NCBI RefSeq assembly: GCF_001571005.1
Contig: NZ_BCST01000003.1
Span: 62,001 to 126,000 of the forward strand
Source of the DNA: Herbiconiux solani NBRC 106740
Lineage (GTDB): Bacteria; Actinomycetota; Actinomycetes; Actinomycetales; Microbacteriaceae
Reading direction: 5' to 3'
Length of the DNA: 64,000 bases
The notes under the pieces are model-generated. The model was given only the letters and a program-made list of their open reading frames with translations, had not been told where the DNA came from and ran no database searches. The position numbers were made by a program, and so were the translations under genes. Positions 6,822-58,247 of the stretch are shown piece after piece. How positions within the stretch are numbered: the first letter of the stretch is position 1; the number at the start of each line of letters is the position of its first letter.

Positions 6822-7853
6822 TCAGCCGACCCGCGCGCCCACCAGCAGCTCGATGTTCTCGGGCTTCCGCTCGAGCTCGCCGGCCTCGATCCGCCGGGCC
6901 AGCTCGACCACGAGCTCGTTGGCCGGCGCCGATCCGCCCACCTTGGCCTGCTCGTCGACGACCAGGCCGTTGATCTCGTGCACCTCGTTGCGGCGCCCCT
7001 TCATCCAGTCCTGCAGCGACGTCGTGCGGGTCGTCGGCGACGAGAAGCGGCGCAGCACCTGCTCGAACAGCTGCTCGGCGAAGACGTCCGGGTCGTCGAG
7101 GGCGGCCTCGGTCATGCCGAAGATGGGTCGCAGCTTGCTGCCCGAGGCTACCGCCGTGCGCGCGGCCTCGCTGCCGCAGCGCAGCATGAACTCGTACATG
7201 CCGGGCACCTGCACGGCCTTGGCGAGCTCGAGGTCGAGGATCGCCGAGGGCACGAGCTCGGCGGCGTTGACGATCAGCTTTCCCCACTTCGAGGAGCGGA
7301 TGTCGTCCGACACCTCGACGGTGCCGGCGTGGCCGAGCACCTCGGCCACCTCCTGCTCGCGCCCCTCGACGGCCGGGTGGATGCCGCCGATCGCGAACCA
7401 GGCGTGCTCGGGCGGCGTCTCGCGGTTGACGACACCGGGCTCCCACATGTTCGACGCGACCTCGATCACGGCGCCGAGCGTGCGCTCCGGGCCCATGATG
7501 TCGGCGATGTCGTCGAGCGACATCCCGTTCTGCAGGCCCACGACCAGGCCGGTCGGCTTGACGAGCGGCTTGATCAGCTCGCAGGCCCAGCGGGTGTCGT
7601 AGGCCTTCACGACGATGAAGACGATGTCGAAGGGCTCGCGGAGCTCGGCGACCTCGTAGAGGTGGCGCACCTCGACCCGGGTGTTCTCGGTGCGGTCGGG
7701 CATCACGACGGTGATGCCGTTCTCGCGCATGGCCTCGACGTGCGCCGGCCACTGCTCGATGAAGGTGACGTCGAGTCCGGCACGGGTGAGGTCGGCGGCG
7801 ATGCCGGCGCCGTTGGCGCCTGTTCCGACGAAGGCGATCTTGGGGGAGGTCAT
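6822..7853 (-). CDS. Ketopantoate reductase family protein (ApbA/PanE-like)
   Basis: The protein has 343 residues. The N-terminal Rossmann domain opens with the NADP-binding loop GTGANGAG at about 10-17, followed by an acidic second strand, and the C-terminal helical ApbA_C domain includes KWGKLIVNAAEL, where the Lys matches the family's catalytic lysine. PanE reduces 2-dehydropantoate to pantoate; many actinobacterial paralogues act on other 2-oxoacids in catabolic loci. Here it stands alone, convergent with the GntR gene and not next to panB or panC, so a catabolic role is as likely as pantothenate synthesis. The ATG at 7853 has only a weak SD. Confidence 0.87.
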   Translation of the reverse strand: MTSPKIAFVGTGANGAGIAADLTRAGLDVTFIEQWPAHVEAMRENGITVVMPDRTENTRVEVRHLYEVAELREPFDIVFIVVKAYDTRWACELIKPLVKPTGLVVGLQNGMSLDDIADIMGPERTLGAVIEVASNMWEPGVVNRETPPEHAWFAIGGIHPAVEGREQEVAEVLGHAGTVEVSDDIRSSKWGKLIVNAAELVPSAILDLELAKAVQVPGMYEFMLRCGSEAARTAVASGSKLRPIFGMTEAALDDPDVFAEQLFEQVLRRFSSPTTRTTSLQDWMKGRRNEVHEINGLVVDEQAKVGGSAPANELVVELARRIEAGELERKPENIELLVGARVG

Positions 7854-8020
7854 CGGCGCTGATACCTGCTTTCCGTTCGCTATTAATGAACAGTGGCCAT
7901 GCTAACCCGGGGTCGAGGCCGGTGAACAGGGGTCAAGCGTTCATTTGAGCTACACAAAAGCACCCCTCGCCTCGCAATCCGGTCGGAGTTCGGCCACGCG
8001 GCACCCGACCGCCGTATTGT

Positions 8021-10810
8021 GTGGCCATGGCAGCGGAGTTGACGCTTGGCGCAGAAGAAGAGCTCCACCTGATCGATCTCGGTAGCGGGAAGCTGTCGGC
8101 GCGCGCGCCACAGATCCTGTCGCGGCTGCCCTCGGAGAACTACTCGGCCGAGATCCAGCGCACCACCGTCGAGACCAACACCGACGTGGTGACGGGGCTC
8201 GACGGTCTCCGCGACGAGATCCTGAGGCTCCGCCGCGGGGTGATCGAGGCCGCCGCACCCGACGGCGTCGGCATCGCCTGCGTCGGCACCGCACCCCGCT
8301 CCGAGTTCGCCGACTTCGAACTCACCACGACGGGCCGCTACGGGCGGATGCAGGAGCAGTACCGCCTGCTGGTCGACGAGCAGCTGATCTGCGGCACGCA
8401 GATCCACGTCGGCGTCTCCGACCGCGACCTCGCCGTCGACATCTCCCAGCGGGTGGCCCGCGACCTCCCCGTGCTCCTGGCCGTCTCGGCCAGCTCGCCG
8501 TACTGGAACGGGCACGACACCGGGTACTCGAGCATCCGCTCGATCATCTGGCAGCGCTGGCCGAGCGCCGGCGCCACCGGGCCGCTCGGGTCGGCCGCCG
8601 AGTACGACGAGCTGCTCGCCGACCTGCTCGCCACCGGTGTGATCGCCGACAGCAAGATGGCCTACTTCGAGGTGCGCCCCTCGTCGCACGCCCCCACGCT
8701 CGAGCTGCGCGTCTGCGACGCCTGCCCGATCGTCGACGACGCCGTGCTGATCGCGGGCCTGTTCCGCGCCTCCGTGCGCGCCGCCGAGCTCGACATCGAG
8801 ACCGGGCTGCCGTTCGTGCCGCAGGCCGCGCCCGTGCACCGGGCCGCGATGTGGCAGGCCGCGCGCGGTGGACTCACCGGCGACCTGCTCGACGACACCG
8901 CGCATCCACGGCCGACCGCCGCCGCCCACGCGGTGCGGCACCTGATCCGGCGGCTTCGCCCCCAGCTCGAGGAGCTCGGCGACTACGAGCAGGTCTCCTG
9001 GCTGGCCGAGACGCTCCTCGCCCGCGGCAACTCGGCCGACCGCCAGCGCGCCGCCTTCGCCGAGCGGGGCGACCTGGCCGCCGTGGTCAAGCTCGTCGTC
9101 GAGGAGACGCACGGGCCGGCCGGCGGCATCCCGCCCGCGGCGCCCGCGCTCCGCACCTACCGCACCCGCGCCGGAGACGAGGCCGTGGGCCCAGGCTCGC
9201 GACCGCGGCCCGCCTACGAGTCGATCGTCGCCCACTACGAGCAGCTCGACCCGGCCCTCGTCGCCGAGCGGATGGCGGCCGTCACCGACTGGACGCGCAC
9301 GCACGGCCTCACCTTCGGCGTCGACGGCGAGGTGCGCGACTTCGCGGTCGACCTCGTGCCCCGCGTCATCCAGGCGCACGAGTGGAAGCAGATCGGCGCC
9401 GGGCTCGAGCAGCGGGCCCGGGCGCTCGAGGCGTTCCTCGACGACATCTACGGCGAGCAGCGGATCGTGGCCGACGGGCTGATCCCGCCGAGTGCGATTC
9501 AGGATGCGCCGGGCTGGTGCGACGAGGCCAGATCGCTGCCCAGCGGCACGGTCAGGGCCCCCGTCATGGGCTTCGACCTCGTGCGCAACGAGTTCGGCGG
9601 CTGGCGGGTGCTCGAGGACAACCTGCGGAATCCGAGCGGCGCGGCCTATTCGGTCGCCATCCGCCAGTTGATGGACGACGTCTCGACCGCGCCGCGGCCG
9701 GCCGGGATGCTCGACCCCTCGAGCCTGTCGGGGCTGCTCCGGCGGTCGGTGCTGCCGGCCGGCGGCACCGGCGCCCTCGTCTCGACGGGCCCCGGCAGCA
9801 CCGCGTGGTTCGAGCACCGTTCGCTCGCCGAGGGGGCGGGGCTCCGGCTGCTCGGTCTCGACGACCTCGAGGTGCGGGACGGCCGGGTGCTCGACCGCAC
9901 CGACGGCACCGCGCTCGACGCCCTCTACCTCCGGCTCGACGTCGAGCTGCCGGATGCGCGGGACTCGTCCGGTTCCCCGATCGGCTCAGCGGTCATGGAG
10001 GTCGCCGCCGCGGGCCGCGTCTTCCTGGCCAATGCGCCCGGCAACGGGATCGCCGACGACAAGGCCATGTACTGCAACGTGCCCGGACTGATCGGCTACT
10101 ACCTCGACGAGCGCCCGCTGCTCGAGCAGGTGCCGACCTACCGCACGAGCGACGAGACCGAGCGCCGGGGCGTGCTCGAGCGGGTCGGCGAGCTGGTGAC
10201 CAAGCCGGTGGACGGGCACGGCGGCGAGGGCGTGCTGATCGGCCCGGCCGCGTCGGCCGCCGAGGTCGCCGCCCGGCGTGCCGAGATCGCGGCCGACCCG
10301 GCGAACTGGGTGGCGCAGGAGGTGGTGGCGCTGTCGTCGCATCCGACGTTCGTGGAAGGCGCGGGGATCGTGCCGGCGCAGGCCGCCGGGGAGGTCATCG
10401 CTCCGGTCTCGCTGCTCGAACCGCGGCACGTCGACCTCCGGGTGTTCGTCTACGCGACGGCCGACGGGTGGGAGCTCGCCGACCTCGCCCTCACCCGGGT
10501 CGCCCCCGGTGGGAGCATGGTCGTCAACTCCTCGCGCGGCGGCGGAGCGAAGGACACCTGGATCGTGACCGAGGATCAGCCGCTGGTCGTGGCCGATGCG
10601 GCGCGGCAGGCGGCGGAGCGGCTGTCCGGGCAGGCGGCGGTGGCGCGGCAGCCAGCGGCTCGCCAGGTGGCGACCGAGCAGGCCGAGCCGGCCGAGCATC
10701 CGGCGACTGCGCAGACCGAGCCGGTTGAGCATCCATCGACCGAGCCGCCCGAGCAAACGGCCGGCCCCACCGGCCAGGAGGAGGTGCCCGATGTGCGGAA
10801 TCGCGGGTGA
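8021..10810 (+). CDS. GCS2-type carboxylate-amine ligase fused to circularly permuted ATP-grasp (type 2)
   Basis: Two ATP-dependent ligase domains lie in one 929-residue chain. Residues about 6-370 match the YbdK/glutamate-cysteine ligase 2 family: GAEEE near residue 10, CGTQIHVGV from 124, and EVRPSSHAPTLELRVCD near 220. Residues about 395-850 match the circularly permuted ATP-grasp family: the EWKQIGAGLEQRARALEAFL segment, LEDNLRNPSG from 531, KPVDGHGGEG from 728, and NSSRGGGAKDTW from 836. The last 70 or so residues are a Glu/Pro/Ala-rich tail. Both domains make amide bonds through acyl phosphates, so the protein may join two amino acids or cap a peptide. The start is GTG 8021 or ATG 8027; neither has an SD. 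Its 3' end overlaps the amidotransferase by 20 nt. The substrates are unknown. Confidence 0.88.
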   Translation: MAMAAELTLGAEEELHLIDLGSGKLSARAPQILSRLPSENYSAEIQRTTVETNTDVVTGLDGLRDEILRLRRGVIEAAAPDGVGIACVGTAPRSEFADFELTTTGRYGRMQEQYRLLVDEQLICGTQIHVGVSDRDLAVDISQRVARDLPVLLAVSASSPYWNGHDTGYSSIRSIIWQRWPSAGATGPLGSAAEYDELLADLLATGVIADSKMAYFEVRPSSHAPTLELRVCDACPIVDDAVLIAGLFRASVRAAELDIETGLPFVPQAAPVHRAAMWQAARGGLTGDLLDDTAHPRPTAAAHAVRHLIRRLRPQLEELGDYEQVSWLAETLLARGNSADRQRAAFAERGDLAAVVKLVVEETHGPAGGIPPAAPALRTYRTRAGDEAVGPGSRPRPAYESIVAHYEQLDPALVAERMAAVTDWTRTHGLTFGVDGEVRDFAVDLVPRVIQAHEWKQIGAGLEQRARALEAFLDDIYGEQRIVADGLIPPSAIQDAPGWCDEARSLPSGTVRAPVMGFDLVRNEFGGWRVLEDNLRNPSGAAYSVAIRQLMDDVSTAPRPAGMLDPSSLSGLLRRSVLPAGGTGALVSTGPGSTAWFEHRSLAEGAGLRLLGLDDLEVRDGRVLDRTDGTALDALYLRLDVELPDARDSSGSPIGSAVMEVAAAGRVFLANAPGNGIADDKAMYCNVPGLIGYYLDERPLLEQVPTYRTSDETERRGVLERVGELVTKPVDGHGGEGVLIGPAASAAEVAARRAEIAADPANWVAQEVVALSSHPTFVEGAGIVPAQAAGEVIAPVSLLEPRHVDLRVFVYATADGWELADLALTRVAPGGSMVVNSSRGGGAKDTWIVTEDQPLVVADAARQAAERLSGQAAVARQPAARQVATEQAEPAEHPATAQTEPVEHPSTEPPEQTAGPTGQEEVPDVRNRG

Positions 10811-12578
10811 GCTGCGGTTCGACGGCCGCAGCGCCGATCTCGGCGTCGTCGAGCGGATGACCGCGTGCCAGAACCACCGCGGCCCGGACGGTTCCGGCCT
10901 CTGGTCCGAGGGCGGGGTCGCGCTCGGCCACCGCCGGCTCTCGATCATCGACCTCAGCGCCGCCGGCAGCCAGCCGATGATCGACCTCGACCTCGGGCTC
11001 TCGATCGTCTTCAACGGGTGCATCTACAACCACCGCGAACTGCGCGCCGAGCTCGAGGGCCACGGCCACCGCTTCTTCTCCACCTCCGACACCGAGGTGA
11101 TCGGCAAGGCCTACGCCCAGTGGGGCAGCGACTGCGTCGACCACCTGCTCGGCATGTTCGCCTTCGTGATCGTGGAGCAGGCATCCGGTCGCATCATGAT
11201 GGCCCGCGACCGCCTCGGCATCAAGCCGCTCTACCTCGACGAGCGGCCCGGCCGGCTGCGATTCGCCTCGACCCTGCCGGCGCTCCTGCAGGCCGGCGAC
11301 GTCGACACCTCGATCGACCGCACGGCCCTGGAGTACTACCTCACGTTCCACTCCGTCGTGCCGGCGCCGCGCACGATCCTGAACGGCATCACGAAGCTGC
11401 CGCCCGCGACCGTGCGGCTGATCGACGCCGACGGGCGCACGACCGACCACGTCTACTGGCGGCCCGAGTTCGACCGCGACCCCGGCCGCGCCGACTGGAC
11501 CGGCCGCGACTGGGAGGACGCGCTGATCACGAGCCTCCGCACCTCGGTCGAGCGGCGGATGGTCGCCGACGTCCCGGTCGGCGTGCTGCTCTCGGGCGGC
11601 ATCGACTCGAGCCTCGTGGTGGCCCTGCTCGCCGAGGCGGGCCAGACCGATCTCGCGACCTTCAGCATCGGGTTCGACTCCGCGGGAGGCGAGTCCGGCG
11701 ACGAGTTCGAGTACTCCACCCTGGTCGCCGAGCGCTTCGGCACCGACCACCACCGCATCGCGATCGACAGCTCGCGGTTGCTGCCCGGCATCGACGGCGC
11801 CGTGCGCGCGATGAGCGAGCCCATGGTCAGCCACGACTGCGTGGCGTTCTACCTGCTCTCGGAGGACGTGTCGAAGTCGGTGAAGGTCGTGCAGTCCGGG
11901 CAGGGCGCCGACGAGGTGCTGGGCGGGTACGACTGGTATCCGCCGCTCGCCGGGGTTCCGCGCGACCAGGCCGCCGAGGCCTACGCCGAGGTGTTCTTCG
12001 ACCGGCGCCGGCCGGCGCTCGGCGGCATCCTCGCGCCCGAGTGGCTCGACGCGACCTCGGATGCCGCGACCGACTTCATCCGGGCCCGGTTCGCCGAGCC
12101 CGGCGCCGAGACCTCGGTGGATGCGGCGCTCCGCAACGACACGACGATCATGCTCGTCGACGATCCGGTGAAGCGGGTCGACAACATGACGATGGCCTGG
12201 GGGCTCGAGGCGCGCGTGCCCTTCCTCGACCACGAGTTCGTGGAGCTGGTCGCGCGCATCCCACCCGAGCTGAAGCTCGCCGACGGCGGCAAGGGCGTGC
12301 TCAAGCGGGCGAGCCGCGGCATCGTGCCGGACGAGGTGATCGACCGCACGAAGGGGTACTTCCCGGTGCCGGCGATCCGTCAGCTCGAGGGGCCGTACCT
12401 TGATCGGGTGCGGGATGCGCTGACCGATCCGGCGGCCCGTTCGCGCGGGCTGTACGACGGGAGTACGGTCGAGCGGATGCTCAGGACACCGAACGAGACC
12501 CGCACCACCCTCGGCTCGAATGCGCTCTGGCAGCTGGCGCTGCTGGAGATGTGGCTGCAGGAGCAGGGCATCCGATGA
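10791..12578 (+). CDS. Asparagine-synthase-like glutamine amidotransferase (NAGGN amidotransferase family)
   Basis: The protein has 595 residues. The N-terminal class II glutaminase domain begins MCGIAGELR with nucleophile Cys2 and includes NHRGPDGSG. The C-terminal synthetase domain has the pyrophosphate loop SGGIDSS (268-274) and SGQGADEVLGGY. It hydrolyses glutamine, adenylates a substrate carboxylate and converts it to an amide. Length and motifs fit the N-acetylglutaminylglutamine amidotransferase group, which amidates a dipeptide osmolyte, but the usual partner synthetase (GNAT fused to ATP-grasp) is absent and a GCS2/ATP-grasp fusion stands in its place. The start has AGGAGGAGG just upstream and lies inside the previous gene; the stop overlaps the S9 peptidase start (ATGA). 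Its substrate is probably the product of the upstream ligase (inference). Confidence 0.88.
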   Translation: MCGIAGELRFDGRSADLGVVERMTACQNHRGPDGSGLWSEGGVALGHRRLSIIDLSAAGSQPMIDLDLGLSIVFNGCIYNHRELRAELEGHGHRFFSTSDTEVIGKAYAQWGSDCVDHLLGMFAFVIVEQASGRIMMARDRLGIKPLYLDERPGRLRFASTLPALLQAGDVDTSIDRTALEYYLTFHSVVPAPRTILNGITKLPPATVRLIDADGRTTDHVYWRPEFDRDPGRADWTGRDWEDALITSLRTSVERRMVADVPVGVLLSGGIDSSLVVALLAEAGQTDLATFSIGFDSAGGESGDEFEYSTLVAERFGTDHHRIAIDSSRLLPGIDGAVRAMSEPMVSHDCVAFYLLSEDVSKSVKVVQSGQGADEVLGGYDWYPPLAGVPRDQAAEAYAEVFFDRRRPALGGILAPEWLDATSDAATDFIRARFAEPGAETSVDAALRNDTTIMLVDDPVKRVDNMTMAWGLEARVPFLDHEFVELVARIPPELKLADGGKGVLKRASRGIVPDEVIDRTKGYFPVPAIRQLEGPYLDRVRDALTDPAARSRGLYDGSTVERMLRTPNETRTTLGSNALWQLALLEMWLQEQGIR

Positions 12579-14593
12579 CGGGGCGGCACGCGGCCGTGGG
12601 GGCGGGTGCTGCGGGGGCGGGTGCTGCGGGGGCGGGTGCTGCGGGGGCTGGTGCTGCGGGGGCTGGTGCTGCTGGGGCGGCGGTCGCTGACGGCACAGCG
12701 GCGGGTGCCGCCGGGCTCGGCACCGCCGATGAGTTCGCCGCCGCGCTGGTCGGGGCCTGGGGCAGCTGGGGCCCGTCGATGACGCCGGATGCCGACCGGG
12801 TCGCCTTCTTGAGCGACCGCGGCGGCATCCCCGAGGTCTGGGTTCAGGATGTCGTGCCGGGCGCGACCGCGCGACGCGTCTCCTTCACGCACGACCCGGT
12901 CGTCGCCGTCAGCTGGTCGGCCGACTCGGCCTGGCTCGCCTGCGCGGTCGCGACCGACGGCGGCGTGCGCACGCAGGTCTGGGTCGTGCGCCCCGACGGC
13001 ACCGACGCGCGCCGCATCTCCGGCCCGCCCGAGCGGCACGCCGAGCTCGGCCCGTGGACCAGGAGCGGTCACCGCGTGGTCGTCACCATCCCCTCGACCG
13101 AGGTCGCCGAGCCGACCCGCGCGTTCCTGGCCGACCCCGCGACCGGGGAGCTGCATCCGCTGGCCGAGGGCGAGCTCATCCACGTGCTCGACCTGTCGGC
13201 GGCCGAGCGGATGCTCGTGCTCCGCGACGGGCGTCGCGGCCACGAGTTCGCGGTGGTGGTCGACCGGGCGACCGACACCGATCATCCGGTGATGCCGTAC
13301 CCGGCGACCGGGGCGACGGATGTCGCGTTCATCCGCCCCTCGCCCCCCGGGCAGGAGGCGCCGGCGGTCGTCTACGCCGCGACGGAGGTCGGGCTGCCAC
13401 GGCGGCAGCTCGTGGCGATGCCCGTCGATCCCGACGACTGGAGCCGCACCCCGGTGGTGCTGGCCGAGCGCCCCGATGCCGAGCTCGAGGAACTGGATGC
13501 GGATGACGCGGGCCGCCTGCTGCTGCTGGTCTGGAACGTGGCCGGCCGCAGCGAGCTCGAGCTGTACGACACGGCGACCGGCAGTTCACGGGCTGTGCCC
13601 GGGTTGCCGGGGGCGGTGGCGACGAGTCCGGTGCTGAGTCGTGACGGGTCGCGGGTGCTGCTGGCGGTCGAGGGCCCGACGCGGCCGCGGGAGCTGTGGC
13701 AGCTCGAGACGTCGTCGCTGGCCTGGTCGCGGGTGAGCGAGGTGCCGCGGCTGCCGGAGCTCGCGCTCGTGGAGCCGACGCTCGAGCGGTACGCGTCGCT
13801 CGACGGGCTCGAGATCACCGGGTGGTTGTACCGGGCTGGCGGTGCCGGCGGGGCTGGCGGTGCCGGTGCTGGCGGGGCTGCCGGCGCGGGTGCTGGTGCT
13901 GGTGCGGGTGCGGGTGCGGCCATGCTGCATCTGCACGGCGGGCCCGAGTCGCAGGAGCGGCCGACGTTCAGTCCGCAGCACCAGGTGATGGTCGCATCCG
14001 GGATCACGGTGTTCGCGCCGAACGTGCGCGGGTCGTCGGGGTTCGGGCGCGAGTTCGTGCACGCCGACGACGTGCGGAAGCGGCAGGGCGCGTTCGACGA
14101 CGTGACCGCAGCGGCGCGGATGCTCGTGGAGCGCGGCATCGCGGATCCGGCCCGCATCGCGGTGACCGGCCGGAGCTACGGCGGGTACCTGACGCTCGCG
14201 GCGCTCGCCTTCACGCCCGGCGTCTTCGCGGCCGGCGTGGACATCTGCGGAATGTCGCACATGCTCACCTTCTACGCCGAGACCGAGCCGTGGATCGCGG
14301 CGGCGGCGGTGACGAAGTACGGGCATCCGGAGCACGACAAGAAGTTCTTGCGGTCGATCTCGCCGCTCGCGAAGGCCGATCAGATCGAGGTGCCGCTGCT
14401 CGTGGTGCACGGGGAGCTCGACACGAACGTGCCGATCGGCGAGGCGCACCGGATCGTGGCGGCGCTGCGCGAGCTCGGCCGCCCGGTCGAGTACCTCGAG
14501 CTGGCGGGCGAGGGGCACGAGTACCGTCGTGCCGACTCGCGGCTGCGGCTCGTGCTGGCGATGCGCGACTTCTTGGCCCCCGCCCTCTCCTGA
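12575..14593 (+). CDS. S9 family (prolyl oligopeptidase-like) serine peptidase
   Basis: The protein has 672 residues: a WD40/TolB-like beta-propeller in the N-terminal half (for example WGPSMTPDADRVAFLSDRGG) and a C-terminal alpha/beta-hydrolase. The catalytic triad is Ser534 (GRSYGG), Asp616 (GELDTN) and His648 (GEGHEY). The enzyme cleaves short peptides and acyl-amino-acid amides. No signal peptide is seen, so it should be cytoplasmic. Two odd Gly/Ala repeats occur: one right after the start (15-bp tandem units, 12601-12675) and one between propeller and catalytic domain (about 13840-13920). The start at 12575 overlaps the amidotransferase stop by 4 bp, so the two are coupled. It may degrade or mature the product of the upstream ligase and amidotransferase (inference). 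Confidence 0.9.
   Translation: MTGRHAAVGAGAAGAGAAGAGAAGAGAAGAGAAGAAVADGTAAGAAGLGTADEFAAALVGAWGSWGPSMTPDADRVAFLSDRGGIPEVWVQDVVPGATARRVSFTHDPVVAVSWSADSAWLACAVATDGGVRTQVWVVRPDGTDARRISGPPERHAELGPWTRSGHRVVVTIPSTEVAEPTRAFLADPATGELHPLAEGELIHVLDLSAAERMLVLRDGRRGHEFAVVVDRATDTDHPVMPYPATGATDVAFIRPSPPGQEAPAVVYAATEVGLPRRQLVAMPVDPDDWSRTPVVLAERPDAELEELDADDAGRLLLLVWNVAGRSELELYDTATGSSRAVPGLPGAVATSPVLSRDGSRVLLAVEGPTRPRELWQLETSSLAWSRVSEVPRLPELALVEPTLERYASLDGLEITGWLYRAGGAGGAGGAGAGGAAGAGAGAGAGAGAAMLHLHGGPESQERPTFSPQHQVMVASGITVFAPNVRGSSGFGREFVHADDVRKRQGAFDDVTAAARMLVERGIADPARIAVTGRSYGGYLTLAALAFTPGVFAAGVDICGMSHMLTFYAETEPWIAAAAVTKYGHPEHDKKFLRSISPLAKADQIEVPLLVVHGELDTNVPIGEAHRIVAALRELGRPVEYLELAGEGHEYRRADSRLRLVLAMRDFLAPALS
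12601..12675 (+). repeat. Five tandem 15-bp units at the start of the S9 peptidase gene
   Basis: GGCGGGTGCTGCGGG repeats five times (the last two units are variants), encoding a run of alternating Gly and Ala directly after the start. Because the unit is five codons, gain or loss changes only the length of the N-terminal tail. The repeat is likely unstable between strains (inference). Confidence 0.85.
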
Positions 14594-14697
14594 CCCGCCC
14601 GCCCCACCCCGCGCATCCCGGCCGTCCCACCCACCCCGCAGGTCCCACCCACCTCGCGCGTCCCACCCCTCCCCGCGCATCCCACCCCCACCCCTTC

Positions 14698-14757
14698 GCC
14701 GAGAAGTCACTTTCACGTCCAAATCCCGGCGTTTAGACGTGAAAGTGACTTCTCGGC
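14698..14757. repeat. Palindromic element, family B, copy 1
   Basis: GAGAAGTCACTTTCACGTC (14701-14719) pairs perfectly with 14736-14754, and the GCC/GGC pairs outside extend the stem to 22 bp. The core from CGAGAAG to CTTCTCG is 56 nt, as in the other two copies (39212-39267 and 39315-39370). C-rich DNA on the left and G-rich DNA on the right prolong the dyad symmetry. The element lies between the convergent S9 peptidase and MFS genes. Confidence 0.85.
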
Positions 14758-14802
14758 GGGGTGGGAGGTGGGCTCGCGGGGTGGGAGGTGGGTGGCGCGG
14801 GG

Positions 14803-16017
14803 TCAGGCCGGGACGAGGGTGCGGGCCCGGGGCATGCGGAGGGCGAAGACCGAGGCCGCCGCCATGAGCACGAACGCCGACGCGAATGCGGCCGGGAACC
14901 CGAAGGCGTCGACGAGCAGCCCGGCGACCAGCGGGCCGGCGATGGCTCCCGCATCGGCCACCGCCTGGAAGACCGCGACCGGCTGCCCGCCTCGCCCGCC
15001 CGCCGCATCCCCCACCGAGGCGGCCGGCGCCGTGCCCATGAACGCGGCCGCCACGCCGTAGACGCAGAGCAGCACGATCAGCACGCCGATGTTCGGCACG
15101 AACGGGATGGCGAGCATGACCACGGCCCCCACCGCGAACGACGCGATGATCGCCGGACGGCGGCCGACCGAGTCGACGAAGCGGCCCGCCGGCAGCAGCG
15201 CCAAGGTCTGCGCGACGGCGGCGACCGCGAAGGCGATGCCCGTCCAGGCCGGTTCGCGGTGCAGCACCTCGACGACGAGCACCGGCACGAGGGCGCTCCG
15301 CACGCCCATCGCCGCCCACCCCTGGGCGAGGTTGGCGAGCAGGGCGGACTGGTACCGCGGATCTCTCAGCACCTGCCGCATCGGCCGGGGCTCCTCGCGC
15401 GGGATGCTGGGGTCGGCCGGGGCGTGGCGTTTGAGAAGGGCGAGGCCCACGGCTCCGGCGACGACGAGGGTACCGGCGTAGAAGAAGAACGGGGCGTGCA
15501 GCGAGATGCCCGAGAGCAGGCCGCCGACTGCGGGGCCGGCCATCCCGCCGATCAGGAAGCCGCCCTGGTAGAACCCGACCGCCCGGCCGCGCACCTCGGG
15601 CGAGGTCGAGGCGAGCAGCAGCGTCATCGCCGAGACCGAGAACATCGCCGAGCCGATGCCGCCGGCGCCGCGGAGCAGGAGCACCTGCGGGTAGTCCTGC
15701 GCGAGGCCGACGAGGGCGCTCGAGACCGCGACGATGCCGATGCCGGTCGCGAGGATGACGCGCTCACCCGCGAAGTCGATCAGCTTGCCCACGAACGGGT
15801 TGGCCACCAGCCGCATCACCGCGAAGGCCGAGACCACCGCGCCGACCTCGAAGTAGCCGACGCCGAAGCTGCGCACGTAGACCGGCAGCACGGGCACGAC
15901 CACGCCGAACCCGAGCATCACGAAGAACGCGACGACCCCCAGCACCACGACGTCGCGGGGCAGCGCGGGGCCGTTGCCCCAGGCGAGGCGGCGGATGAGG
16001 GTGGATGCGCGGGACAC
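14803..16017 (-). CDS. MFS transporter, DHA1-like
   Basis: A protein of about 404 residues with twelve predicted membrane segments in two bundles. The cytoplasmic motif after helix 2 (ANPFVGKLIDFAGERVIL) and a second copy in the C-terminal half (LPAGRFVDSVGRRPAII) are typical of the major facilitator superfamily. Drug- or metabolite-proton antiport is the usual role of this type. GTG at 16017 gives a compact basic N-terminus (SRASTLIRRLAWG); GTG at 16050 is an alternative, and neither has a convincing SD. It is convergent with the S9 peptidase gene, so a link to export of that operon's product is only speculation. Confidence 0.85.
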   Translation of the reverse strand: MSRASTLIRRLAWGNGPALPRDVVVLGVVAFFVMLGFGVVVPVLPVYVRSFGVGYFEVGAVVSAFAVMRLVANPFVGKLIDFAGERVILATGIGIVAVSSALVGLAQDYPQVLLLRGAGGIGSAMFSVSAMTLLLASTSPEVRGRAVGFYQGGFLIGGMAGPAVGGLLSGISLHAPFFFYAGTLVVAGAVGLALLKRHAPADPSIPREEPRPMRQVLRDPRYQSALLANLAQGWAAMGVRSALVPVLVVEVLHREPAWTGIAFAVAAVAQTLALLPAGRFVDSVGRRPAIIASFAVGAVVMLAIPFVPNIGVLIVLLCVYGVAAAFMGTAPAASVGDAAGGRGGQPVAVFQAVADAGAIAGPLVAGLLVDAFGFPAAFASAFVLMAAASVFALRMPRARTLVPA

Positions 16018-52286: not shown

Positions 52287-55200
52287 ATGGCTCATAGGCT
52301 TCCACGCCGCCTTCGCACCGCTCTTGCCGGGTGCACGACTATCGCTGTCGCGGTCGGGATCGTCTCCCTCTCCGCACTCCCCGCTCAGGCGGCCGAGGCG
52401 CAGTCGCCGTTCGCGACCACCGCATCCTCGGCCGTCGACGCGACCACCGCATCCGCACCAGCCGCCCCGGCCCCGGCCCCGACGACCGCCCCGCAGGCCA
52501 CCGCCCTCACCACCAACGACCTCACCGACCCGCTCGGCGTCGGCGGCGACGCGCCCCGCCTGTCGTGGCAGGTCATCGACCCCGACCGGGGCAGCGTGCA
52601 GTCGGCCTACCGCGTGCGGGCCGCGAGCTCTGCGGAGGGCCTCGCGAGCGGCGACACGATCTGGGATTCCGGCAAGGTCGACTCCGACCAGTCGGTCGAC
52701 GTCGACTGGGCCGGCCCCGAGCTCGCCTCCTCGACCCGCTACTTCTGGCAGGTGCAGGTCTGGGACGGCACGGGAGCCGCCTCCGATTGGAGCGCCCCCG
52801 CCTGGTTCGAGACCGGTCTCCTCGAGGCCTCGGACTGGTCGGCCGACTGGGTCGGCGCGCAGGCCGAGTCGCGCGACTGGACCGACTACACCCTGACCTC
52901 CGAGTTCTCGCTCGTGCACCCCGCCTCCTCGGCGATCGGATTCTTCTTCCGCAGCCCCGACGCCCAGAACGGCTTCATGTGGCAGATCAACTCGGGCATC
53001 CAGGCCGCGGGGAAGGTCTACTTCCGCCCCCACGACAAGGTCAACGGCGGCTACAACCTCCTCGGCAACCAGGACATCACCTCGATCATCGCCGAGCACG
53101 GCGGCGTCGAAGCCACGCACACGATCACCGTCCAGGTGGTCGGTGACACCATCACGACCTCGATCGACGGGGTCGCCCTCGGCGGCCAGTTCGGCGTCGT
53201 GAAGAGCTCGAACCACCCGAGCGGCGGCATCGGCCTGCGCACGAGCGGCACCGAGAGCGCCCTGATCAAGAACCTCACGGTCGTCTCCTCCGAGGGCGAG
53301 AGCCTCTTCGGTTCCACCTTCGGAGCCGGAGGCACCGGCACAGCCACCACAAACCCCCTGAACGGCGGCACCCCCTCCCCCGACGGCCTCGCGATCAGCG
53401 GCGGCGTCGAAGCCTTCCAGACCGTCGAGCCCCCGATCGTCCGCGGCGGCTTCACCACCGACCCGACCAAGACCATCGCGTCGGCCCGCGCCTACGCCTC
53501 GGCCCAGGGCCTCTACCAGCTGAACCTCAACGGCGCCCAGGTCGGCGACCAGTACCTCGCGCCCGGCTGGACCGACTACTCCAAGACCTACCAGTACCAG
53601 ACCTACGACATCACGAGCCAGGTCGTGCCGGGCGCGAACGCCCTCGGCGCCCAGCTCGCCGACGGCTGGTTCGCCGGCACCCTGCAGAGCGGGCCGAAGA
53701 ACGTCTGGGGCTCGACCTCCGACCTGTCGCTGATCGCGCAGGTGCTCGTCACCTACACCGACGGCACCAGCCAGACCTTCGGCACCGACGGAAGCTGGAC
53801 CACCTCGACCGGCCCGGTCGTGGCCGCCGACCTCTACAACGGCGAGACCTACGACGCGACCCGCGAGCAGACCGGCTGGGACACCCCGGCCTTCGACGCC
53901 TCCACCTGGGCGCCCGCCGTCATCCGCCCCTCGCAGACGGCGAAGCTGCGTGCGCAGTCCGACCAGCCCGTCCGGATCACGAGCGAGCGCCCCGCGCTCA
54001 CCCAGACCGAGCCCACGCCCGGCGCGTTCGTCTACGACCTCGGCCAGAACATGGTCGGCACGGCCGCGCTCACGCTGACCGGCAAGGCGGGCCAGCAGGC
54101 GCGCATCCGGTACGCCGAGGTCCTCAACCCCGACGGCACGATGTACACCGCGAACCTGCGGAGCGCGAAGGTCACCGACTACTACACCTTCGCCGCCGAC
54201 GGCACGGCGAGCTTCCACCCCACGCTGACCCAGCACGGCTTCCGCTACGTCGAGGTCACCGGGGTCGACACCGCCCCCGCCCTCACCGACGTCGTGGGCA
54301 CCGTGTGGAACTCGGCCGGAGAGGACACGGTCGGCTTCACCACCTCGAACGCCCTCGTGAACCAGCTGCAGTCGAACATCACCTGGGGCCAGCGCGGCAA
54401 CTTCGTCTCGATCCCGACCGACACCCCGGCCCGCGACGAGCGGCTGGGCTGGACGGGTGACATCAGCGAGTTCGCCAGCACCGCGACCTACAACCTCGAC
54501 TCGGACGCGTTCCTGACCAAGTGGCTGCGCGACCTGCGCACCGCCCAGTCGGCGAACGGCGCCTACCCGGATGTCGCCCCGAACTACGCCGGGATGTCCG
54601 GCAACGGAAACTCCGGCTGGGCCGACGCGGGCGTCACGGTGCCCTTCGCGCTCTGGCAGAGCTACGGCAACACGGACGTGCTGGAGGACGGCTGGTCGTC
54701 GATGACGAAGTACATGGACTACCTCGCCGCGACCAGCTCGAACTTCCAGCGCGACGGCGGCGCCTTCCGCGACTGGCTGAACCTCAACGACGAGACCGCC
54801 TCGAACATCATCGGCACCGCGTACTACGCGCACAGCGCCGACCTGATGTCGCAGATGGCGGCCGCGATCGGCAACACGGCGGATGCGGACAAGTACCGCA
54901 CCCTGTACGAGAACATCCGCTCGTCTTACCAGGACGCGTTCATCGGCGACGACGGCGCGCTCTCCAGCGACACGCAGACCGGCTACGTGATCACGATCAT
55001 GTTCGGCCTGGTGCCGGATGCCGTGCGCGACCAGCTGGCCGACCGCTTCGTCGCCACGCTCGAGCGCGCCGACTGGCACCTCTCCACCGGGTTCCTGGGC
55101 GTCAAGAACCTGCTGCCCGCCCTCACCGCGATCGACCGCACGGATGTCGCGTACCGCCTGCTGCTCAACACCGACTACCCCTCGTGGGGCTACGAGATCG

Positions 55201-58200
55201 CGAACGGGGCGACCACGATCTGGGAGCGCTGGAACTCGATCATGCCCGACGGCTCCTTCGGCGACGTCAGCATGAACTCGTTCAACCACTACGCCTACGG
55301 CGCCGTCGGCGCGTGGATGTACGGCACCGTGGGCGGCATCTCGGCCCTCGAGCCCGGCTACCGCAAGACACTGATCGCCCCGGTGCCCGGTGGTGGACTG
55401 ACCAGCAGCGCCATGGACTACCGCACCCCGTACGGCACGGTCTCCAGCCACTGGAGCACGGGCCCTGGATCATTCGACCTGACCGTCGCGGTGCCGGCGA
55501 ACACCACGGCCCGCGTCGTGGTGCCGGCGCAGAACCCGCTGGCCGTGACGGAGGGCGGCTCGCCGCTCACCTCGGCCGCCGGGATCGTCTCGTCCACCGA
55601 CACCGGTGACACCGTCACGATCGAGCTCGGCTCGGGCGACTACGACTTCGCGGTCGAGTCCCCGGCCGCCGACCTCGCCTCCGTGAAGGAGGGTCTCGCC
55701 GCCTTCGACCAGCTGGTCGAGGACGCGGACCTGACCGGGCCGCAGCGCACCGCGCTCCAGGCCGACTCGGCCACCGCCGCCGCGGCGGTCGACGCGGGTC
55801 TCGCCGACCCGGCCTCCGCGGCCGAGAAGGCGGGCGCCGCGCTCTCGGCCCTGCAGGACGCGAAGGCGCTCGTCGCCACCGACCTGACCGCCGGGCCGCT
55901 CGACCAGGCGGGGGCCGACGCTCTCGTCGCCGCCCTCGACCCGATGATCCAGAGCCTCAACCGGGCCCTGGTCGCGGCGATCGGCATCTCGGTGGGCACC
56001 ACCGGGCCGGCCGGCGAGCTGCTGCCCGGCCAGACCGAGACGGTGACCGTGACGGCCAGCAACACCTCGGCCGCGGACATCGCCGACGTCGGAGCCGCGC
56101 TCGACCTGCCGGAGGGCTGGACGTCGGCCCCCGCGGCCGCCGAGCGCGTCACCCTGGCGGCAGGGGCGTCGAACGCCTTCACCTTCCAGGTCACCGTGCC
56201 CGTCGACGCCACGATCGGGAGCAACCCGATCGTCGGCCGGGTGGACGTGCCGATCACCGGAGGCCGGGCCTCGACGACCGCGGCCACCTCGGTCACGGTC
56301 GCCTCGCCGGTCACCCTGACCGCGACCGCGGCTCCCGCGACCGCGGCCCCGGGCGGCTACGCGCTCGTCACGGTGGCGCTGCACAACCGCAGCACGGCCA
56401 CCGTGACCGGCACGGTGCAGCTGGGTGTGCCGGAGGGCTGGACCGCACCCGCGGCCTCGGCTCCCGTCACCCTCGCCCCGGGCGCCGACGCCTCGGTGCC
56501 GGTGAGTCTCGTCGTCCCCGCCTCGGGCAACACCGGGACGGTACCGGGCCTCGTGGCCGGCTTCGCCTCGGCGGGCCAGACGCTCGCCACGGCTCCGGTG
56601 CCCTTCGCGCTGACCATCGGCGTGCCGGATGCCGCGACGGCGATCGACTACCTCGACATGGGCAGCACGGCCTCCACCCCCGCGGGCGAGGCGGCCCACG
56701 CCGTGACCTTCTCGTCGCGCTCGGGCAACTCGCCCGACGAGGCCGGACTGACCCGCCGCTACACCTACAAGGGCGAGAAGGACGGCTTCATCCAGTTCAC
56801 GATGAAGATCACCAAGGGCCAGCCGTTCGTCCTCCGAACCCGCGAGACGTACGACGGGCCGCAGATCAAGGACTACGAGGTGCTGGTGAACGGCCAGACC
56901 GTCGAGTCGCGGATGTTCGAGCACACCTCGGGCATGGGCACGGAGGTCTACCAGGTGGTGGTCGACGATCCGGCCCTGCTGACCGGTGACACCGTCACCG
57001 TTCGCTTCCAGAACAACCCCGAGGGCCGCAACTACGACCCGTCGATCGCGGATGTCTGGACGCTGCCGGTCCCGGCTGCTGACACGGTCGCCCCGGTGAC
57101 CACCGCATCCTTCGACGACCAGGGCGGCACCGCCGTCGGGCCGGTCGCGGTCACCCTCGCGGCGACCGACGACGTCTCGGGTGTGGCGAGCACGACGTAC
57201 TCGGTCGACGGTTCGCCCGCCGCCGTGTACACCGCGCCGTTCGAGGTCTCGGGCGCCGGTGCGCACACCGTCACCTACCGCTCGACGGATGTGGCCGGCA
57301 ACACGGAGGAGATCAAGACGGCCACGCTCCACCTGGTGCAGGGGCCGCCCGAGGTCGACCGGTTCTCCGGCGTCGACCGCTTCGAGACCGCGGTGACGGT
57401 GTCGAAGGCCGGCTTCGAGACCGCCGACACGGTTTACCTGACCTCGGGCGAGACCTTCCCCGACGCGCTCTCCGCGGCTCCCGCGGCGGCCGTCGACGGC
57501 TCGCCGATCCTGCTGACGAACGCGGGCTCGCTGCCCTCGGTCGTGCGGGACGAGATCATCCGGCTCACGGCGACGCACGTCGTGATCGTGGGCGGGCCGA
57601 ACTCGGTCGGCGCCGCGGTCGAGGCCGACCTCCAGACCCTCGTGCCCTCGGTCACGCGGATCGGCGGGGTCGACCGCTACGAGGCCTCGCGCAACGTCGC
57701 CTCGACGGCGTTCCCGACCGGAGCGGACGTGGCGGTCATCGCGACCGGCACCTCGTTCCCGGACGCACTGTCGGCCGGTGCCGCGGTGGCCGCGCACGGC
57801 CCGGTCATCCTCGTCGACGGCTCCGCCCCGACGCTGGATGCCGCGACAGTGGCGCTGCTGAAGCAGCTCGACGTCGATCAGATCGTGGTCGCCGGCGGTC
57901 CGGACACGGTCTCGGCGGGCATCCTGGCGCAGGCGAAGTCGCTGGTGCCGGACACCGTGCGGCTCTCCGGAGCCGACCGGTACGCCACCTCGCGGGCGAT
58001 CAACGCGCACTTCTTCGACTCCACGGAGAAGGTGCTGATCGCCACCGGCCTGAGCTTCCCCGACGCCCTGTCGGGATCGGCTCTGGCGGCACGCGTGGGC
58101 GGCCCGCTGTTCACGGTGCCGGGCACCTGCATCCCGTCCGAGACCCTGGCGCAGATCACCGCGCTGGGTGCGAAGGACGTGGCGCTGCTCGGAGGCGAGA

Positions 58201-58247
58201 ACACGCTGTCACCGGCGGTCGCCGATCTGACGGTCTGCGCACCCTAG
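52287..58247 (+). CDS. Secreted GH78 alpha-L-rhamnosidase with C-terminal CWB2 repeats
   Basis: The protein has 1,986 residues. A signal peptide (LRTALAGCTTIAVAVGIVSL, then AQA) is followed by Ig-like and laminin-G-like domains and the (alpha/alpha)6 GH78 domain. Asp712, Glu718, Trp722 and Asp725 (DTPARDERLGWTGD) and Glu980 (TIWERWNS) match the spacing of the acid (E636) and base (E895) of SaRha78A as recalled. The C-terminal third has NPCBM/NEW3-like, OmpL47-like and three CWB2 repeats (about 1690-1986; VDRFSGVDRFETAVTVSKAG). CWB2 binds cell wall polymers. It releases rhamnose from plant or microbial glycans at the cell surface. Confidence 0.9.
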   Translation: MAHRLPRRLRTALAGCTTIAVAVGIVSLSALPAQAAEAQSPFATTASSAVDATTASAPAAPAPAPTTAPQATALTTNDLTDPLGVGGDAPRLSWQVIDPDRGSVQSAYRVRAASSAEGLASGDTIWDSGKVDSDQSVDVDWAGPELASSTRYFWQVQVWDGTGAASDWSAPAWFETGLLEASDWSADWVGAQAESRDWTDYTLTSEFSLVHPASSAIGFFFRSPDAQNGFMWQINSGIQAAGKVYFRPHDKVNGGYNLLGNQDITSIIAEHGGVEATHTITVQVVGDTITTSIDGVALGGQFGVVKSSNHPSGGIGLRTSGTESALIKNLTVVSSEGESLFGSTFGAGGTGTATTNPLNGGTPSPDGLAISGGVEAFQTVEPPIVRGGFTTDPTKTIASARAYASAQGLYQLNLNGAQVGDQYLAPGWTDYSKTYQYQTYDITSQVVPGANALGAQLADGWFAGTLQSGPKNVWGSTSDLSLIAQVLVTYTDGTSQTFGTDGSWTTSTGPVVAADLYNGETYDATREQTGWDTPAFDASTWAPAVIRPSQTAKLRAQSDQPVRITSERPALTQTEPTPGAFVYDLGQNMVGTAALTLTGKAGQQARIRYAEVLNPDGTMYTANLRSAKVTDYYTFAADGTASFHPTLTQHGFRYVEVTGVDTAPALTDVVGTVWNSAGEDTVGFTTSNALVNQLQSNITWGQRGNFVSIPTDTPARDERLGWTGDISEFASTATYNLDSDAFLTKWLRDLRTAQSANGAYPDVAPNYAGMSGNGNSGWADAGVTVPFALWQSYGNTDVLEDGWSSMTKYMDYLAATSSNFQRDGGAFRDWLNLNDETASNIIGTAYYAHSADLMSQMAAAIGNTADADKYRTLYENIRSSYQDAFIGDDGALSSDTQTGYVITIMFGLVPDAVRDQLADRFVATLERADWHLSTGFLGVKNLLPALTAIDRTDVAYRLLLNTDYPSWGYEIANGATTIWERWNSIMPDGSFGDVSMNSFNHYAYGAVGAWMYGTVGGISALEPGYRKTLIAPVPGGGLTSSAMDYRTPYGTVSSHWSTGPGSFDLTVAVPANTTARVVVPAQNPLAVTEGGSPLTSAAGIVSSTDTGDTVTIELGSGDYDFAVESPAADLASVKEGLAAFDQLVEDADLTGPQRTALQADSATAAAAVDAGLADPASAAEKAGAALSALQDAKALVATDLTAGPLDQAGADALVAALDPMIQSLNRALVAAIGISVGTTGPAGELLPGQTETVTVTASNTSAADIADVGAALDLPEGWTSAPAAAERVTLAAGASNAFTFQVTVPVDATIGSNPIVGRVDVPITGGRASTTAATSVTVASPVTLTATAAPATAAPGGYALVTVALHNRSTATVTGTVQLGVPEGWTAPAASAPVTLAPGADASVPVSLVVPASGNTGTVPGLVAGFASAGQTLATAPVPFALTIGVPDAATAIDYLDMGSTASTPAGEAAHAVTFSSRSGNSPDEAGLTRRYTYKGEKDGFIQFTMKITKGQPFVLRTRETYDGPQIKDYEVLVNGQTVESRMFEHTSGMGTEVYQVVVDDPALLTGDTVTVRFQNNPEGRNYDPSIADVWTLPVPAADTVAPVTTASFDDQGGTAVGPVAVTLAATDDVSGVASTTYSVDGSPAAVYTAPFEVSGAGAHTVTYRSTDVAGNTEEIKTATLHLVQGPPEVDRFSGVDRFETAVTVSKAGFETADTVYLTSGETFPDALSAAPAAAVDGSPILLTNAGSLPSVVRDEIIRLTATHVVIVGGPNSVGAAVEADLQTLVPSVTRIGGVDRYEASRNVASTAFPTGADVAVIATGTSFPDALSAGAAVAAHGPVILVDGSAPTLDAATVALLKQLDVDQIVVAGGPDTVSAGILAQAKSLVPDTVRLSGADRYATSRAINAHFFDSTEKVLIATGLSFPDALSGSALAARVGGPLFTVPGTCIPSETLAQITALGAKDVALLGGENTLSPAVADLTVCAP

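Follow-up and report, generated by a model that had tools for sequence, protein, structure and literature searches.

A conserved actinobacterial operon in which a fused GCS2–ATP-grasp ligase replaces the NAGGN synthetase beside an AsnO-type amidotransferase

The window, a 64,000-nucleotide (nt) stretch of the Herbiconiux solani NBRC 106740 genome (contig NZ_BCST01000003.1, positions 62,001 to 126,000), carries three plus-strand genes at 8021-14593, which we call LIG, AsnO and S9 in order of transcription. LIG (8021..10810 from a GTG codon, or from the ATG at 8027) encodes a YbdK-like GCS2 ligase domain fused to a type 2 circularly permuted (CP) ATP-grasp. AsnO (10791..12578, ATG) encodes a glutamine-dependent amidotransferase, and S9 (12575..14593, ATG) an acylaminoacyl-peptidase-like serine peptidase. 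The AsnO start lies 20 nt inside LIG and the S9 start overlaps the AsnO end by 4 nt (ATGA); the genes, their order and both overlaps are as the original prediction for this locus gave them. Comparison with six relatives puts the ratio of nonsynonymous to synonymous substitution rates at 0.14-0.46 in both parts of LIG (GCS2 and CP), in AsnO and in S9, indicating that all four are under purifying selection. A promoter and terminator scan of 7700-14900 on both strands found neither; the chance expectations are <1 and ~1, and the sigma-70 rule may not suit this host. Spread of LIG on plasmids is rejected, since a plasmid set gave no match at E <= 1e-80.

LIG matches GCS2 (170 bits, cut-off 21) and CP_ATPgrasp_2 (332 bits, cut-off 32) within a single protein, bearing out the predicted pair of amide-forming ligase domains. 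The GCS2 domain (8045..8872; residues 9-284 counted from 8021) carries the LGAEEEL motif and is over the cut-off for PF04107 and for two models of YbdK-type subfamilies, TIGR02050 (256.6 vs 176.4 bits) and NF010041 (351 vs 332 bits); its nearest solved chains are YbdK 1r8g and 1tt4. The CP-ATP-grasp domain (9359..10504; residues 447-828, counted likewise) spans profile positions 1-374 of 374. Its ATP-grasp motifs, VLEDN, KPVDGHGGEG and VNSSRGGGAKDTW, are intact and align with those of 3n6x, the nearest solved chain, a CP-ATP-grasp named as a putative glutathionylspermidine synthase. Few CP-ATP-grasp ligases have a known substrate. A domain search found no acetyltransferase domain in LIG. The EgtA model TIGR03444 is absent from its NCBIfam matches at E <= 0.001, and identity with EgtA of ergothioneine synthesis is rejected. 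A 33-nt repeat (10669-10754) lies in the low-complexity tail of LIG. The same genome encodes a second CP-ATP-grasp (G000 C9:78743-80440; L156:5804-8440), 42% identical to the CP half of LIG and adjoining an alpha-E-like gene, called by likeness to a neighbour cluster and not by a family search.

AsnO is composed of an N-terminal glutaminase domain (GATase_7, starting MCGIAG) and an asparagine-synthase domain (Asn_synthase, with SGGIDSS). It scores 947 bits against TIGR03104 (cut-off 570.1), and such loci are named as the amidotransferase of N-acetylglutaminylglutamine amide (NAGGN) by standard annotation pipelines. In the NAGGN pathway, Ngg acetylates and joins two glutamines and AsnO amidates the second (PMC8070244). 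Micromonospora provocatoris reportedly makes NAGGN and carries asnO and ngg (PMC8146288), and in Frankia, proteins assigned to NAGGN increase under polyethylene glycol (PMC5768760). The H. solani genome (3.85 Mb, 99.92% complete) contains one TIGR03104 gene over the cut-off. It contains no Ngg (TIGR03103) over the cut-off, the best score being 24.6 against 569 bits, and no match at E <= 0.001 to the M42 peptidase TIGR03106, which is absent from some Ngg loci too. Since the searches turned up neither Ngg nor the M42 peptidase, the locus, despite its TIGR03104 gene, is not a member of the NAGGN system, although it would work like the NAGGN trio. A NAGGN-like amidotransferase without the NAGGN synthetase, as predicted originally, is thus what the whole genome contains.

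The S9 protein matches Peptidase_S9 with 157 bits (cut-off 22.6). Its motifs GRSYGGY, HGELDTNVP and GEGHEY, at residues 532, 612 and 645, presumably hold the Ser-Asp-His triad. Of the solved chains, the amino acyl peptidase 5l8s is nearest, and next come further S9 enzymes, among them acylaminoacyl-releasing ones. Judged by eye, the N-terminal region looks like a linker rich in Ala and Gly. Short tandem repeats (15 and 24 nt) at 12598-12680 and 13841-13919 encode Ala/Gly-rich stretches of the protein.

The trio is conserved. A scan with LIG gave 78 loci, unevenly sampled, with many Curtobacterium genomes among them. Eight were set aside: L076 and L078 at contig ends, L079 with GCS2 only, L086, L087, L089 and L090 with CP only, and L088 in pieces. 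The remaining 70 have the full-length fusion and span Microbacteriaceae, Kineosporiaceae, Cellulomonadaceae, Geodermatophilaceae, Propionibacteriaceae and Nocardioidaceae. AsnO and S9 are also matched in 55 of them, in 52 over about the full length of both; the partial matches are to S9 in L025 and L044 and to both genes in L033. Four of the 70 have AsnO and no S9, two of these at a contig edge. LIG and AsnO are at most 60 nt apart in 54 of the 55 trio loci. For S9, a possible start was found in 51 of them, and in 42 of these 51 it is no farther than 60 nt from the AsnO stop. As called by our own gene finder, the flanking genes vary between genera. Among 150 genomes of the host's family, TIGR03104 occurs in 16, the fusion in 15 and the two side by side in 13. 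The trio is thus kept together in other genomes, as expected of the single functional unit originally proposed; its absence elsewhere, together with an Ngg in this genome, had been named as what would count against that proposal, and neither was found. In one Naasia locus (L079:8001-11084), the GCS2 half alone, 76% identical to that of LIG, lies directly before S9, and the CP half is missing. In Curtobacterium flaccumfaciens Sample7_18 (L088/L174), LIG, AsnO and S9 match in pieces, and the trio looks broken.

Replacement of Ngg by another ligase is systematic in Actinomycetota. TIGR03104 was found in 31 of 296 genomes. TIGR03103 was found at E <= 1e-100 in 21 (19 over the cut-off), all of them among the 31, and adjoins AsnO in each, with one short open reading frame (ORF) between in G189. 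The other 10, a third of the 31, have no TIGR03103; GCS2, CP-ATP-grasp or both adjoin AsnO instead. The partner is the fused GCS2-CP with S9 in G000 and G086, GCS2 with S9 in G023, G128, G193 and G246, GCS2 alone in G121, separate GCS2 and CP with DUF1028 in G130 and G237, and CP with DUF1028 in G076. Ngg is present in 12 of 106 longer AsnO loci (duplicates counted) and a GCS2 or CP gene in 73; one has S9 only and 20 have none of these, L150 among them because its GCS2 falls below the score limit. No AsnO locus has both Ngg and GCS2/CP in the stretches read. An unfused set of GCS2, CP-ATP-grasp, AsnO and DUF1028 occurs in another family, its GCS2 too distant for a search with that of LIG to find. 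In two Naasia loci (L172 and L188), a further TIGR03104 AsnO has no ligase next to it; its neighbours are a nucleoside hydrolase gene and transporter-like genes.

The third gene changes as well. Across the 106 loci, M42 is confined to Ngg loci (5 of the 12), S9 accompanies GCS2 in 65 loci and is present in one locus without a ligase, and DUF1028 occurs in the 3 unfused CP loci. Since a different hydrolase (M42 or DUF1028) occupies the third position in other AsnO loci, turnover of the product would fit S9 better than maturation. The S9 peptidase predicted for the operon is there; the maturing role given to it is weakened by its likeness to acylaminoacyl-type enzymes and by the other hydrolases elsewhere. 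A maturation protease would be expected if the enzymes modified the end of a protein or ribosomal peptide, as in lasso peptides and other ribosomally synthesized and post-translationally modified peptides. AsnO-like cyclases and S9-type isopeptidases do occur in lasso pathways, and both families match weakly here. The scores are far under the cut-offs (lasso cyclase NF033535, 228 vs 525 bits; isopeptidase NF033523, 83 vs 400 bits), on which ground the lasso assignment is rejected, and no conserved small ORF or precursor was found between or beside the genes among ORFs of at least 60 residues. In addition, canonical AsnO relatives act on a dipeptide (PMC8070244). We regard this explanation as very improbable.

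An AsnO tree, with the fused rows thinned to 25, indicates that pairing with GCS2/CP ligases arose repeatedly. The partner label (Ngg or GCS2/CP) switches four times, at least three of the switches being forced by starred branches. The AsnO rows linked to the fusion form one group, and its sister is formed by the Streptomyces-type GCS2-AsnO-S9 rows (support 97/95). When gammaproteobacterial AsnO sequences are added (quick method, midpoint root), the GCS2/CP-linked rows fall among the Ngg-linked ones, pointing to Ngg as the older partner. By a quick method, the CP domains of unfused AsnO loci lie outside the fused CP group (support 92, not starred); GCS2 and CP probably joined AsnO twice. In a quick tree of GCS2 domains, GCS2-only rows nest among the fused ones, and the CP half was therefore probably lost there.

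AsnO also differs with its partner, most of all in a C-terminal stretch. Residues 571-581 (12501..12533, plus strand) read RTTLGSNALWQ in fused rows, and LTPLRGNKLWQ or near in Ngg-linked rows. Among all stretches of eight residues, columns 571-578 diverge most on average (0.49, where the mean over columns is 0.13). Gly occupies position 576 in 25 of 27 Ngg-linked rows and in none of 37 GCS2/CP-linked rows; for Arg or Lys at 575 the counts are 23 and none, and for Leu or Ile at 571 they are 27 and one. These counts, like that of the partner switches, exclude AsnO rows with no ligase and one row with S9 only. Five gammaproteobacterial Ngg-linked rows likewise read TPLRG. Residues 571-578 are a candidate acceptor-site change that follows the ligase partner. 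A positive charge at 571 was rejected as a rule, fitting only part of the lineages (Ser in L107, Thr in L150, Leu in L186, Met in L189).

These data bear on whether LIG simply stands in for Ngg, so that the operon makes NAGGN or another N-blocked Gln-Gln amide. In favour of this, the identity of AsnO to Ngg-linked rows is 58-66%, its TIGR03104 score is well above the cut-off, and annotation pipelines name it accordingly. However, LIG shows no acetyltransferase domain, the GCS2 chemistry of named relatives is formation of a gamma-glutamyl bond, and the AsnO motif is unlike that of 25 of the 27 Ngg-linked rows at position 576. In addition, four Quadrisphaera-type genomes keep LIG-S9 beside a separate Ngg-linked AsnO located elsewhere. 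We consider synthesis of NAGGN by this route unlikely.

We propose instead that a small gamma-glutamyl peptide is built, given a terminal amide and broken down again by the enzymes of this operon, a version of the NAGGN trio with a non-homologous ligase, and hold this with moderate confidence. GCS2 relatives make gamma-glutamyl bonds, and ATP-grasp enzymes extend them, as in glutathione synthesis. Because LIG has no acetyltransferase, its GCS2 relatives form such bonds and an ATP-grasp could extend them, a gamma-glutamyl peptide is the product that we propose. The GCS2 domain would join the gamma-carboxyl of Glu to an amino acid, and the CP-ATP-grasp domain would lengthen the product at its carboxyl end in the manner of GshF. 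AsnO would then take nitrogen from the amide of Gln to amidate the terminal carboxylate, and S9 would hydrolyse the capped peptide. Streptomyces-type loci without the CP domain would make a shorter form. Substrates, order of steps and direction of S9 are what we infer from the domains and the gene order. A gamma-glutamyl peptide amide would be uncharged overall and would suit a compatible solute; it may serve as an osmolyte or nitrogen store. The product is probably a new small molecule. If it is a new amidated peptide, it would represent a new small-molecule class in actinobacteria and give CP-ATP-grasp ligases a testable role. Amidoligases were reportedly surveyed by Iyer and others (2009), and the genetics of NAGGN by Sagot and others (2010). 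Our literature search found no description of the GCS2-CP-ATP-grasp/AsnO/S9 trio; an earlier listing of this architecture is possible.

Several observations weigh against this proposal or its parts. The fusion occurs without AsnO and S9 in 6 of the 70 loci and with S9 but no adjoining AsnO in 5. GCS2-only relatives, 62-71% identical, are present in 4 of the 150 family genomes, and the stretches read there show no AsnO or S9; nested as these relatives are among the fused ones, they imply that GCS2 has a use of its own. The specificity of GCS2 and CP-ATP-grasp domains is not readable from sequence. On the AsnO side, the support of the fused group is 90/55, and the starred branches provide only three independent pairs, nearly always concordant, giving a sign-test p of at least 0.25. 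The choice of motif columns was post hoc: it followed a scan of all 595, in which a strict specificity filter had left just 4 and the wider divergence score was applied next. The alignments of solved AsnO relatives end at residue 562, short of the motif, so that the nearness of 571-578 to the acceptor site is presumed. The GCS2-only and fusion-only genomes would also be expected of a loose cluster, in which the two ligase domains do other ligations and AsnO and S9 are merely co-transcribed. Such a cluster is hard to reconcile with the tight LIG-AsnO coupling in 54 of 55 loci, the differing flanks and the repeated independent pairing with AsnO, and we give it a low probability.

TIGR03104 reaches beyond NAGGN in another direction. 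In the gammaproteobacterial class, reached via a record titled Gammaproteobacteria, it matches in 124 of 274 genomes. We read 45 of the loci: the 30 with the highest scores and 15 chosen mainly among low-scoring ones. Ngg is present in 5, and a Grx4 monothiol glutaredoxin gene lies near AsnO in 28 others (L193-L234, e.g. L234:5858-8016) and in none of the 5. Because Grx4-linked and ligase-less AsnO pass the cut-off too, TIGR03104 is not specific to NAGGN and over-calls it. Grx4-linked AsnO is a candidate glutathione amidotransferase, a lead through which the amidation that yields glutathione amide could be tested. Purple sulfur bacteria are known to have glutathione amide, for which Glu21 of glutathione reductase serves as a marker (PMC8877833); one study found none in Allochromatium vinosum (PMC4213376). 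Our literature search found no paper naming both glutathione amide and an asparagine synthetase. An unannotated 20.5-kb record of Pseudomonas phage Y15 (OQ572415.1) contains an AsnO-like gene at 651-2417, 53.5% identical, possibly on host DNA.

The product of the H. solani operon could likewise be a thiol, a glutathione-amide-like gamma-Glu-Cys-X amide for redox chemistry. GCS2 and ATP-grasp correspond to the two activities of glutathione synthesis, and the Grx4 neighbourhoods point the same way. In 5 of the 78 loci, from two families (L015, L016, L019, L024 and L083; Herbiconiux and Geodermatophilus), the trio is followed at a distance of a few kb by the gene for a CPWA-motif protein, which we take to resemble glutathionyl-hydroquinone reductases; the one such protein tested gave no NCBIfam match. 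However, neither the window nor the other 73 loci have this gene, most loci have the S9 peptidase and no conserved thiol-redox gene beside the trio, and actinobacteria mostly use mycothiol. We judge a thiol product rather unlikely, and prefer the gamma-glutamyl peptide amide as set out above.

A bolder form of that proposal, which we offer only tentatively, would be that one AsnO line took up unrelated ligases and hydrolases as new partners on several occasions, each time with a change in its acceptor pocket. LIG would then be a second, independently assembled bifunctional gamma-glutamyl tripeptide synthetase whose product is an undescribed amidated gamma-glutamyl tripeptide, and the gammaproteobacterial Grx4-linked AsnO would be a glutathione amidotransferase.

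Elsewhere in the window (52287-58247) is the gene for a 1986-residue protein with alpha-L-rhamnosidase domains and cell-wall-binding CWB2 repeats.

Compared with known systems, the operon is closest in logic to the NAGGN trio of AsnO, Ngg and M42, with which it shares the AsnO family, the combination of ligase, amidotransferase and peptidase, and compactness. It differs in that the GCS2-CP-ATP-grasp fusion takes the place of Ngg (GNAT plus RimK-like ATP-grasp) and S9 that of M42, and in its AsnO motif. In GshF, the bifunctional glutathione synthetase, a single chain holds a gamma-glutamyl ligase domain and, after it, an ATP-grasp ligase. LIG likewise pairs a gamma-glutamyl-type ligase domain with a downstream ATP-grasp, but is built from GCS2 and a circularly permuted ATP-grasp, and an amidotransferase gene follows; neither TIGR01435 nor the GshAB model is among its listed NCBIfam matches. 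With the CP-ATP-grasp/alpha-E cassettes the locus has the CP_ATPgrasp family in common; unlike them, it has no alpha-E gene, and the fused CP domains group apart. The GCS2-AsnO-S9 operons of Streptomyces and Embleya, although without an adjoining CP-ATP-grasp, have all three functions in common with it, and their AsnO is sister to the fused group.

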